From a virus, in the IMG/VR virus record IMGVR_UViG_3300043122_000114, positions 1 to 27,856 of that record: a DNA stretch of 27,856 bases, one strand, 5' to 3'. Numbering within the stretch: position 1 is the first letter of the stretch; every line of letters starts with the position of its first letter. This document shows, in pieces, positions 2,637 through 25,758 of the stretch. Both the position numbers and the translations under genes were made by a program. Below the pieces are notes generated by a model that saw only the letters and a list, made by a program, of their open reading frames with translations, was not told where the DNA came from and did not search any database.

Positions 2637-4206
2637 TCTTGCTGAATCGCAGTTCTTCGCCCCAGCCAGCACGGACATGGTCGATAGTCTCATTGGCCGC
2701 TATCGGGAAGAGCGCCAGCGCATGGAGCGCGTGGTAGAGTATGTCTCTGGCGATGACTTCCGGTCGGTGATTTCGTATTTCGAGGATGCCGCCAAGCGGC
2801 AACACCACCAGGGCGGAAATACGCCGAGCTTCAAGCTGGAAAGTGGCCTGGCTGCGCTGGATGCCAGCTACTGGCACCAAGCCCTGAGCCTGACGGACGT
2901 TCTGGATTTCATGCCCACGAAGCGCCGGGAAGAGTGGTTTGATCTGATTCACAACCACAAAGCGCCGGAGTTTGAGGAAAGCGCCGTTCGCGCCACCCTG
3001 GCGGACCTTCTGGCCCAGCGTATGGACTTTCTGGCCGAAAAGGTAGACGGAATTTTCCGAGCCCTGAGCAAGGCGCACGTCACCAATCAGCCGGAGGGAT
3101 TCGGCAAACGCATGATCCTGACCGGCGTGACTAACGACTGGGGCAGCTATTCCCGCAGCCAGACCGGGCACCTGAATGATCTGCGCCAGGTGATTGCGAA
3201 ATTCATGGGGCGCGACGAGCCGGACTGGAATGCAAGCAACCGGGTTGTCGAGATCGCCCGAGCGAACCATCGGGGTGAGTGGGTGCCACTGGATGGCGGG
3301 GCGCTCCGGATTCGGTGCTACAAGAACAGCAATGCCCACCTAGAAGTGCATCCGGATATGGCGTGGCGCCTGAACGAGATCCTGCACCACCTGTACCCGA
3401 CCGCCATTCCATCCCGATTCCGGCAGAAGCCGAAGCGCAAGGTAAAAGAATTTACCTTGATGGAAAGACCTTTACCGTTCGCGGTGCTGGACGTGCTTCA
3501 CCGCCTTGGCCGTGCCTATGACACCGCAGAGCGTAGCCGCCGGCTGATTCCGAACGCTGTCCGAATCGAATCCCACGAAAAGGACAAGCATGTAATCGCC
3601 GAAGTTGAGCGGGTGCTAGAGCTGTTGGGCGGCGTGAAGCAGAACACCAACGCATACAGCTGGTATCAGTTCGACTACGACCCGGAACCGGTCATTAAAG
3701 AGATCGTGTGCACCGGCGTTATCCCTGACCAGAAAAGCCACCAGTTCTACCCGACGCCTGAGCACATTGCCCGGGATGCGGTGGAGCTGGCGGAGATCCG
3801 CACCGCGCACAACTGTCTTGAGCCGAGCGCCGGAACAGGCAACATTGCCGACCTTATAGACGCGCCCTTGCATTGTGTGGAGGTCAGCCCGCTGCACTGT
3901 GCTGTGTTGCGCGAGAAAGGTCACGAGGTCATTCAGGCAGACTTTCTGCAATGGTCAGAGGGGTTACCGAATCTGAAGTTTGACCGCATCGTAATGAACC
4001 CGCCTTACAGCCAGGGGCGATGGCAAGCACACATCGAGCACGCGGCAACCATGCTGCGCCCTGATGGTGTGCTAGTTGCCATCCTCCCGTCCAGCGCCAA
4101 GGGCAAAGACCTGCTGCCGGGCATGAACCTTACCTGGTCGAAGGTCTACGAAAACCAGTTCCGGGGTGCGTCGGTGGATGTTGTTATCATGAGGGCAGAG
4201 AAATGA
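2629..4206 (+). CDS. DUF4942-type protein with C-terminal N6-adenine DNA methyltransferase domain, 525 aa
   Basis: The GTG at 2629 is chosen because GGGGAG lies seven bases upstream and it overlaps the preceding gene slightly; an open stretch extends to 2593 without a better start. Residues 1-370 resemble DUF4942 proteins of phages and mobile elements. Residues 375-525 form a class I methyltransferase: motif I EPSAGTGN near 398-405 binds S-adenosylmethionine, and motif IV NPPY near 457-460 is the catalytic motif of adenine-N6 (and related) DNA methyltransferases. The expected target is DNA adenine, and the likely purpose is protection from host restriction or regulation. No cognate restriction gene is seen. 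The recognition sequence cannot be read from the protein. Confidence 0.8.
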   Translation: MSNLAESQFFAPASTDMVDSLIGRYREERQRMERVVEYVSGDDFRSVISYFEDAAKRQHHQGGNTPSFKLESGLAALDASYWHQALSLTDVLDFMPTKRREEWFDLIHNHKAPEFEESAVRATLADLLAQRMDFLAEKVDGIFRALSKAHVTNQPEGFGKRMILTGVTNDWGSYSRSQTGHLNDLRQVIAKFMGRDEPDWNASNRVVEIARANHRGEWVPLDGGALRIRCYKNSNAHLEVHPDMAWRLNEILHHLYPTAIPSRFRQKPKRKVKEFTLMERPLPFAVLDVLHRLGRAYDTAERSRRLIPNAVRIESHEKDKHVIAEVERVLELLGGVKQNTNAYSWYQFDYDPEPVIKEIVCTGVIPDQKSHQFYPTPEHIARDAVELAEIRTAHNCLEPSAGTGNIADLIDAPLHCVEVSPLHCAVLREKGHEVIQADFLQWSEGLPNLKFDRIVMNPPYSQGRWQAHIEHAATMLRPDGVLVAILPSSAKGKDLLPGMNLTWSKVYENQFRGASVDVVIMRAEK

Positions 4207-15184: not shown

Positions 15185-15253
15185 CATGGCGTAAAACTGG
15201 CCTAACATCATCTCCCCAACCGCCCGCCAATGGCAGCTCCCAAGGATTTCCCC

Positions 15254-15577
15254 ATGAAAACCAACACAGCCTACCGCATCACCACCATCTTCGCCTTTCT
15301 GGCCGCTACGGCCCTATGCGTGCCCGCGCATGCAGAAACCGCCCTGCACGCCGGAGGCTGGAGCTACCACATCGTCACAGGCAACAAGGTCGATTACACC
15401 AGCAGCCATGACCTGGTCGCGGTTGAGCACAAGCGGGTATTCGCTGCCAGGTTCCGCAATAGCTTCGGCAAGAAGCTGTTGCAGCAAGAAAGGAAGCTGA
15501 GATTAGATATGGCTACCATGCAAATCATGGGAAAATGCCAGCAAGAAGGTAGCCCTTGCGTTCTCCGTGAGGTTTGA
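15254..15577 (+). CDS. Secreted phage protein with signal peptide, 107 aa
   Basis: The ATG at 15254 has AAGGA seven bases upstream. The N-terminus MKTNTAYRITTIFAFLAATA plus LCVPAHA is a clear signal peptide with an AHA|ET cleavage site near residue 28. The mature protein reads ALHAGGWSYHIVTGNKVDYT, then LVAVEHKRVFAARFRNSFGK. This GGWS.H...H....EH......RNS.G pattern recalls short exported phage proteins whose job is not settled. It lies between two self-contained transcription units, so it may act on the host envelope during infection or lysogeny. Two cysteines near the C-terminus (KCQQEGSPC) may form a disulfide. Confidence 0.7.
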   Translation: MKTNTAYRITTIFAFLAATALCVPAHAETALHAGGWSYHIVTGNKVDYTSSHDLVAVEHKRVFAARFRNSFGKKLLQQERKLRLDMATMQIMGKCQQEGSPCVLREV

Positions 15578-15585
15578 GCTATAGT
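15556..15585 (+). promoter_or_regulatory. Promoter of the non-coding RNA unit
   Basis: TTGCGT (15556-15561), 18-base spacer, TATAGT (15580-15585). It overlaps the last codons and stop of the secreted-protein gene. It would start transcription near 15592 with no following gene before the terminator at 16041. Confidence 0.55.
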
Positions 15586-15951
15586 CACCCATGACAATTG
15601 CATGTCAGCGGGCCGCAGCGCTTAATCTGCGGTGCACGGCTAGAGCTTGCCGAACTAGCCACAAGCCTGGAGGCAATCTCACTGTGAAGCGATACGCTGT
15701 ACGCATCCCGTTAGGCGGTAACTAGCGGGCACTGATTTGGCCTCTGTTGCATGACGATGCTACGACCGTCTGACGAGGCGGCCAGAGGCCAATTCAGTGA
15801 GGTGAATGCGCAGGCTGATGCGCAGGTGTGGTGTAAGGAGCGCTGCACAACTCATGCAGCGCAAGCACGCCGTGGAACGGCGGTGCAGGTGAATCCTGCC
15901 ACTGGTGGAGACCAAGCCGGAGATCAGCACCGGCCACCTCACTTTAATTCT

Positions 15952-16020
15952 GGGCCAATAGCTCAATCAGCAGAGCAGCCGACTCATAACCGCCATCCCG
16001 ACGGCGGCAGATAGTCGGGG
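15952..16020 (+). other. tRNA-like 5' half with CAT anticodon loop, probably not a functional tRNA
   Basis: GGGCCAA, TA, a D-arm GCTC/GAGC (15961-15976) and an anticodon-type loop CTCATAA (15983-15989) follow tRNA(CAU) order closely. The anticodon stem pairs at only three of five positions. No T-arm or CCA end lies at the right distance; instead CCGCC (15990-15994) pairs with GGCGG (16003-16007), or CCCGAC (15997-16002) with GTCGGG (16014-16019). It may be a decayed tRNA, an att-site remnant, or a tRNA-mimicking domain of the RNA. Confidence 0.5.
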
Positions 16021-16040
16021 CTTCCTCTCTCTCCATCTTG

Positions 16041-16066
16041 CCCCGCGATTGCGGGGATTTTTTTTT
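16041..16066 (+). terminator. Strong intrinsic terminator before the terminase genes
   Basis: CCCCGC (16041-16046), loop GATT, GCGGGG (16051-16056), then A and nine Ts (16058-16066). It ends the non-coding RNA unit. A TATACT box at 16072-16077 follows at once, with TTGCGG (16049-16054) as a weak -35 17 bases upstream, so terminase transcription may restart here. Confidence 0.9.
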
Positions 16067-25678: not shown

Positions 25679-25730
25679 TGACCGGCTAGCCCGCAAGCGA
25701 AAGGCGGCCTCATCCACCGCTTGCCGGTCA
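25679..25730. other. Long imperfect hairpin between tail-tube and chaperone genes
   Basis: TGACCG (25679-25684) pairs with CGGTCA (25725-25730), and GCAAGCG (25693-25699) pairs with CGCTTGC (25718-25724), with a seven-base bulge between. Only CTTT follows, so termination would be weak. It may reduce transcription from tube to chaperone genes or stabilise the tube mRNA. Confidence 0.5.
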
Positions 25731-25758
25731 TCTTTCCGGATGCATAGCGAGGCATGAT

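Follow-up and report, generated by a model that had tools for sequence, protein, structure and literature searches.

A conserved kissing-loop RNA core with an exchangeable insert in phages of gamma- and betaproteobacteria, and its possible tRNA-like mimicry

Background

What purpose an RNA might serve directly upstream of a small terminase subunit gene (terS) is the question raised by positions 15592-16066 of a virus fragment from IMG/VR (27,856 bases, here called the window), for which an initial annotation had proposed a highly structured non-coding RNA with its own promoter and terminator and, because terS follows, perhaps a function in packaging or head assembly. The non-coding RNA is real, judging by folding in excess of that of shuffled sequences and by covariation of its core across 58 diverse copies. 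It belongs to a family that has no Rfam entry, yet is found in approximately 200 named phages and in about one tenth of the sampled Pseudomonadaceae and Enterobacterales genomes.

Extent and folding of the RNA

The features of the RNA, all on the plus strand, are as follows.

15556-15561 and 15580-15585, plus strand: -35 and -10 elements of a weak sigma-70-like promoter, identified by sequence (8 of 12 consensus bases)
15592-15726, plus strand: variable 5' domain, folding as expected by chance (z -0.17)
15707-15729, plus strand: 8-bp hairpin CCCGTTAG-GCGGTAA-CTAGCGGG, abutting H1 (sequence, folding)
15730-15799, plus strand: H1, in which a 17-position helix encloses two small hairpins, immediately 5' of the core (z -4.5)
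15730-15746 and 15783-15799, plus strand: the 17-position stem of H1, CACTGATTTGGCCTCTG and CAGAGGCCAATTCAGTG, 16 of 17 positions paired
15797-15804, plus strand: 5' strand of the core outer helix, GTGAGGTG, its GTG shared with H1 (7 of 8 pairs changed on both sides)
15808-15823, plus strand: hairpin 1, GCGCA-GGCTGA-TGCGC, kissing bases 15814-15818
15824-15915, plus strand: hypervariable insert cassette of 92 nt (12-178 nt and unrelated in sequence among members; cassette swaps)
15840-15862, plus strand: 8-bp hairpin with a 7-nt loop, within the insert (sequence)
15885-15899, plus strand: T-arm-like remnant GCAGGTGAATCCTGC within the insert, recognized by eye
15916-15934, plus strand: hairpin 2, GCCGG-AGATCAGCA-CCGGC, kissing bases 15924-15928
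15935-15942, plus strand: 3' strand of the core outer helix, CACCTCAC, directly abutting hairpin 2 (covariation)
15952-16044, plus strand: degenerate tRNA-Met(CAT)-like segment (85.7% identity over 42 nt to tRNA-Met of Acinetobacter phage Acj9, E 1e-4)
16041-16066, plus strand: intrinsic terminator, its 5' arm overlapping the acceptor-like 3' strand of the preceding segment

The minimum free energy of 15592-16066 is -205.7 (z -3.82), a value reached by none of 100 shuffled sequences. In a comparison by parts, also against shuffles, H1 (taken as 15727-15798) and the core (15792-15948) each gave a z of -4.5, the whole RNA -3.7 and the 5' domain -0.17, compared with -1.8 to +0.8 for four control stretches of the window. 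Thus, the folding excess is located in H1 and the core, and the first 135 nt, although previously counted among the helices, fold no better than shuffled sequence and add none. The 17-position stem is present as originally described, and so are the two 8-bp stems, each with a loop of 7 nt. Protein coding was rejected, as the open reading frames across the RNA have neither a Pfam match nor a coding signal. No Rfam family matches the RNA at its gathering score or at E <= 10, other than chance matches at the latter cutoff.

Of the two proposed transcription signals, the terminator is clear (CCCCGC-GATT-GCGGGG followed by nine T), but the promoter (TTGCGT-18-TATAGT), although present, is weak and falls below the scan threshold. 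A promoter-like site closer to consensus (TTGTGA-17-TATGAT) occupies the homologous place in a relative (L469) with a terminase 73% identical to that of the window, an RNA that likewise precedes terS, and a homologous H1 with changed pairs. The segment between these signals would presumably be transcribed as one RNA. The promoter-like site of the window overlaps the end of a gene just 5' of the RNA (15230-15577), which matches a PHROG annotated as PagP-like (lipid A acylation; E 1.8e-8, partial profile). Elsewhere in the window, a weak match to the Rfam int-alpA RNA (25679-25743, 36.3 bits, cutoff 35.8) lies in the tail-gene region, and another int-alpA RNA match occurs in L086.

The counterpart of H1 is a frequent feature of the family: helices of at least 13 bp occur at its place in 53 of 159 members, compared with 5 of 152 controls, and approximately one third to one half of members have a long helix ending at the core as the window does.

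A conserved core closed by a loop-loop pairing

Searches of named phages with blastn found two short pieces of the RNA recurring in 168 phages of very different kinds, and these pieces are the two halves of one conserved core at the centre of the RNA (15797-15942), consisting of an outer helix, hairpin 1, the 92-nt insert and hairpin 2. Its order is the 5' strand of the outer helix, GAAU, GCGCA-GGCUGA-UGCGC, the insert, AA, GCCGG-AGAUCAGCA-CCGGC, and the 3' strand of the outer helix; there is no linker between hairpin 2 and the outer helix, and three bases separate the outer helix from hairpin 1. The covariance model R1 matches the window at 15792-15948 with 81 bits, the window being included in R1's own alignment.

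Among the 58 diverse copies, 97.3% of pair cells are kept paired and 17 of 23 pairs have changed on both sides. This covariation extends over four helices, was not reached by any of 500 shuffles (the controls being shuffle-based, with the tree only partly modelled), and is destroyed by sliding the pairing partner by one to three columns. One of these helices is formed by the loops of hairpins 1 and 2, which are complementary and covary (GCUGA:UCAGC in the window). This loop pair was counted 161 times, GUCGA:UCGAC 21 times, GCCGA:UCGGC three times and UGCGA:UCGCA once, in addition to G-U variants. The loops are fully complementary in 168 of 172 unique cores, compared with a mean of 141 and a maximum of 151 when loops were dealt at random. 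Compensatory changes in four helices including the loop-loop pairing require selection on RNA structure, and the kissing-loop closed core is the firmest new result of this analysis.

Conserved and covarying kissing loops, a variable linker, tRNA neighbours and residence in phages are also features of GOLLD and ROOL (PMC12286853), and some other phage RNAs of similar style assemble into cages, where the kissing loops would have a different role. An RNA nanostructure, in which kissing loops join copies into oligomers or cages, as in GOLLD and ROOL, with the cassette as cargo or linker, is nevertheless unlikely for this family: the core has a length of only about 60 nt when the insert is excluded, matches neither the GOLLD nor the ROOL model, and has its two loops facing each other across one junction, so that an intramolecular contact suffices.

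Occurrence of the family

Scanning IMG/VR and a genome collection for patterns with both core halves and a pairing outer helix located core copies at 212 places in the fetched phage and prophage loci, of which 189 are distinct. Host genomes in which both halves occur belong to gamma- and betaproteobacteria; exact motif matches from other groups, such as actinobacteria, have no second half and were taken to be chance. At E below approximately 1e-5, R1 finds strong copies in about 13 of 148 Pseudomonadaceae-group genomes and about 12 of 149 Enterobacterales-group genomes; one genome of the latter group (G255, 4.3 Mb) has seven core copies. By these sequence searches, the RNA is a family outside Rfam that is carried by hundreds of gamma- and betaproteobacterial phages. 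Nothing was found in the open-access literature on the core motif strings, the tag peptides described below or the subject of RNA decoys; the name EGFOA, from candidate lists of the Weinberg laboratory, occurs in none of the papers listed.

An exchangeable insert

The insert is exchanged as a cassette. Two phages (L110 and L036) are identical over 100 upstream bases and 99% identical downstream, with unrelated inserts of 74 and 148 nt, and the same kind of swap distinguishes L195 from L023, in which the flanks are 92-96% identical; the reverse pattern, one insert in different surroundings, is common. The notion that inserts are strongly structured was rejected, because their folding is only slightly above that of controls (mean z -0.57 versus -0.26).

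Gene context

The genes around the copies do not bear out a connection with packaging. A packaging RNA (pRNA-like) beside the small terminase gene would agree with the position of the RNA in the window, directly before terS, but the small terminase subunit family accounts for only two of 148 downstream neighbour genes, and the copies of HK620, Magnus, phi_D3 and Bas80 are far from packaging genes. Given so varied a context, a function in packaging is hardly credible. Downstream neighbours are mostly of unknown function, with holins, endolysins and N-like antiterminators leading among those that are known, and CI-type repressors and Q antiterminators lead upstream. The contexts range from cI to N-like genes, from Q to lysis genes, and to tRNA neighbourhoods of lytic phages: the HK620 copy lies between the annotated promoter pR' and terminator tQ, that of phi_D3 (PP944329) between ninG and holin genes, those of swi2 and Bas80 just before tRNA-Met, and that of Magnus, a large lytic phage, amid small genes of unknown function. 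In Magnus (Klebsiella phage, L003) an Rfam STnc100 match lies 1.3 kb 3' of the core (3554-3768).

Many of these positions would suit a cis-acting leader, that is, an untranslated region at the start of the late or the early left operon that controls read-through of a terminator in the manner of a Q-dependent late leader or a put-like antiterminator. The window has the order promoter, RNA, terminator, late genes; the HK620 copy is placed between pR' and tQ; many members have Q or CI upstream and lysis or N-like genes downstream; leader position in lambdoid phages also fits; and the acceptor-like strand TTGCCCC, which overlaps the 5' arm of the terminator (16038-16056), could compete with it. 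The two folds are mutually exclusive, a possible attenuator. Against this stand the copies in lytic phages that are not at the head of an operon and those that neighbour tRNA genes, the freely swapped cassette, for which a switch in cis has no need, and the outcome for the upstream window genes, among whose tested proteins the Q family was not found. Only a quarter of copies (45 of 182, compared with 2% of control windows) have a recognizable terminator in the next 250 nt downstream. The variety of contexts implies that a purely cis role is not general, and the leader is considered possible, but distinctly less probable than an RNA acting in trans.

tRNA-like and rRNA-like content

Pieces resembling tRNA are concentrated around the core: with both strands counted, 46 T-arm motifs were found in 134 kb around cores, compared with 17 in the remaining 2.3 Mb of these loci, an enrichment of about 50 times. 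Most of those near cores fall within H1 or the insert and do not yield a tRNA gene call. Genuine tRNA genes lie within 1.5 kb of 22 of the 189 copies, with 33 tRNAs on the same strand and one on the other. In L469, the place of hairpin 2, immediately next to the outer helix, is taken by a genuine T-arm (CCGGTTCAACTCCGG).

In the window, the tRNA-Met-like segment that follows the core has an acceptor-like pairing (GGGCCAA/TTGCCCC), a D-arm and an anticodon stem (CCGACT/AGTCGG); the T-arm is absent and an extra hairpin (CCGCC/GGCGG) interrupts the anticodon loop. Positions 15952-15990 correspond to the 5' half of tRNA-Met, to which the identity is confined, and neither ARAGORN nor Rfam found a complete cloverleaf tRNA in the window RNA. 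A discriminator base followed by CCA occurs at the expected place in 13% of cores, compared with a few per cent at neighbouring offsets, and is absent from the window. A canonical tRNA with CCA was rejected as a description of the family, as this feature is enriched but not conserved; the outer helices, of up to 23 bp, are also unlike acceptor stems.

A segment resembling helix 11 of 16S rRNA (E. coli 243-282; 82-87% identity over about 40 nt) is present in two unrelated contexts, the insert of L104, L115 and L191 and the region 3' of the core in L193, with one apparent compensatory pair. General mimicry of rRNA was rejected because foreground and background match rates are similar except for this element.

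tmRNA-like tag frames in enterobacterial relatives

In enterobacterial relatives from P1-, Felix O1-, Ackermannviridae- and HK620-like phages (L002, L003, L006, L040, L053, L082, L086, L453 and L454-L461), a tmRNA-like frame of exactly ten codons is located 5' of H1, after an A-rich stretch. The frames would encode ANEEMYLAVA, ANDDVVLMAA, ANDEQFLAVA, ANDNTFLAVA, ANDNVFLAVA, ANDNQYLAVA, and further ANDDLMMVAA, ANDDLMLMAA and ANDDAVLMAA, with synonymous codon changes and with TAA, TAG or TGA as the stop; as a control, the scan recovers ANDENYALAA of E. coli. ARAGORN does not call these elements, and the loci scanned gave no Rfam tmRNA match; one ARAGORN tmRNA call, in L006, was set aside as spurious, its predicted tag being unlike a tag and the call extending across the core and tRNA-Met. 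The whole HK620 element as query matches 722 named phages, and in many of these, P1-like, Felix O1-like and Ackermannviridae phages among them, the match extends over the tag. An exhaustive search published in 2014 reported mycobacteriophages and Bacillus phage G as the only phages with ssrA (PMC4131195); judging by the present frames, tmRNA-like elements that tmRNA finders miss may be present in many enterobacterial phages. The window RNA has no convincing tag frame.

Mosaic exchange at conserved hairpins and degenerate tRNA pieces might also be expected of a recombination hotspot, with hairpins kept as DNA sites, or of a functionless remnant of a tRNA array. Both are improbable in the face of compensatory changes in four helices, the loop-loop pairing among them, and of tag frames that keep their amino acids through synonymous changes.

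Proposed function

The reading that we prefer, to which we would give an even chance, is that of an independently transcribed phage RNA acting in trans, built on a conserved tRNA-like scaffold and serving as a mimic or decoy that engages translation-related host factors. The outer helix would be an acceptor-like stem; hairpin 2, stacked directly on it, would resemble a T-arm; hairpin 1 would take the place of the D-arm; and the GCUGA:UCAGC pairing would lock the elbow where the D- and T-loops meet in tRNA. The core matches the order of T-arm, acceptor and D-arm, and L469 has a real T-arm, with helix length and CCA varying among members; the hairpins could also form a plain tuning-fork fold without tRNA ancestry. 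Between them the scaffold would hold the exchangeable cassette, with tRNA-, tmRNA- or rRNA-like modules beside it. That the swapped region often carries pieces like host tRNA suggests mimicry or baiting of the host translation machinery. During infection or lysogeny, the RNA may engage host factors that recognize such RNAs, perhaps enzymes that process or cleave tRNA, or the ribosome and its rescue pathway, with mimicry or decoy as the most likely action, to the benefit of the phage, and with the variety of cassettes following the variety of host targets.

A broader version of the mimic or decoy reading, which we hold tentatively and with clearly less confidence, is a phage-wide modular RNA mimicry in which the kissing-loop scaffold carries swapped cassettes that resemble, or were copied from, host tRNA, rRNA and tmRNA, including tag frames of P1-, Felix O1- and Vi1-like phages that would be translated, and thereby baits RNA-targeting defences or redirects ribosome rescue. 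A loop-loop locked scaffold with free cassettes, if true, would offer a defined and testable case for the function of large phage RNAs and of incomplete phage tRNAs.

Comparison with known systems

HK022 put and the lambdoid late leader RNAs are structured RNAs at the heads of phage operons, before a terminator. The window RNA likewise precedes a terminator and late genes, a likeness of description, whereas many copies of the family lie outside operon heads.

In agreement with the initial annotation, the RNA does not belong to GOLLD or ROOL as Rfam models them (no match at gathering score or at E <= 10), and the kinship of style that had been noted with such large phage RNAs is borne out by a combination of constant and variable parts, kissing loops and association with tRNA that is also found in GOLLD and ROOL, both of unknown function (PMC12286853). 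Like the present family, GOLLD resides in phages and prophages, joins a conserved to a poorly conserved part, has kissing loops, and has tRNAs inside or beside it, GOLLD env-38 lying 3' of a Met-tRNA (PMC12286853); its members are often longer than 800 nt, whereas the core in the window is far smaller, differs in sequence and structure, and has no match to the model. ROOL is similarly found near tRNA islands, with a covarying kissing loop and a linker that lacks similarity between homologues (PMC12286853), but differs in sequence, structure and core size, and its model likewise has no match.

With tmRNA, the family shares what may be a tRNA-like arrangement and, in the relatives, a ten-codon tag frame resembling ANDENYALAA, together with helices that look pseudoknot-like by eye. 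The window RNA differs in having no tag and no tmRNA call by ARAGORN or Rfam, no G3:U70 alanine signature is visible by eye, and the tag of the relatives is 5' of the tRNA-like part instead of inside it. Phage tRNAs and tRNA arrays resemble the family in that genuine tRNA genes, mostly on the same strand, stand beside core copies, whereas the tRNA-like pieces within the family's own RNAs are incomplete and for the most part escape tRNA calling. Since one proposal for phage tRNAs is that they counteract anticodon nucleases (PMC10264068), a counter-defence role is testable for the window RNA.
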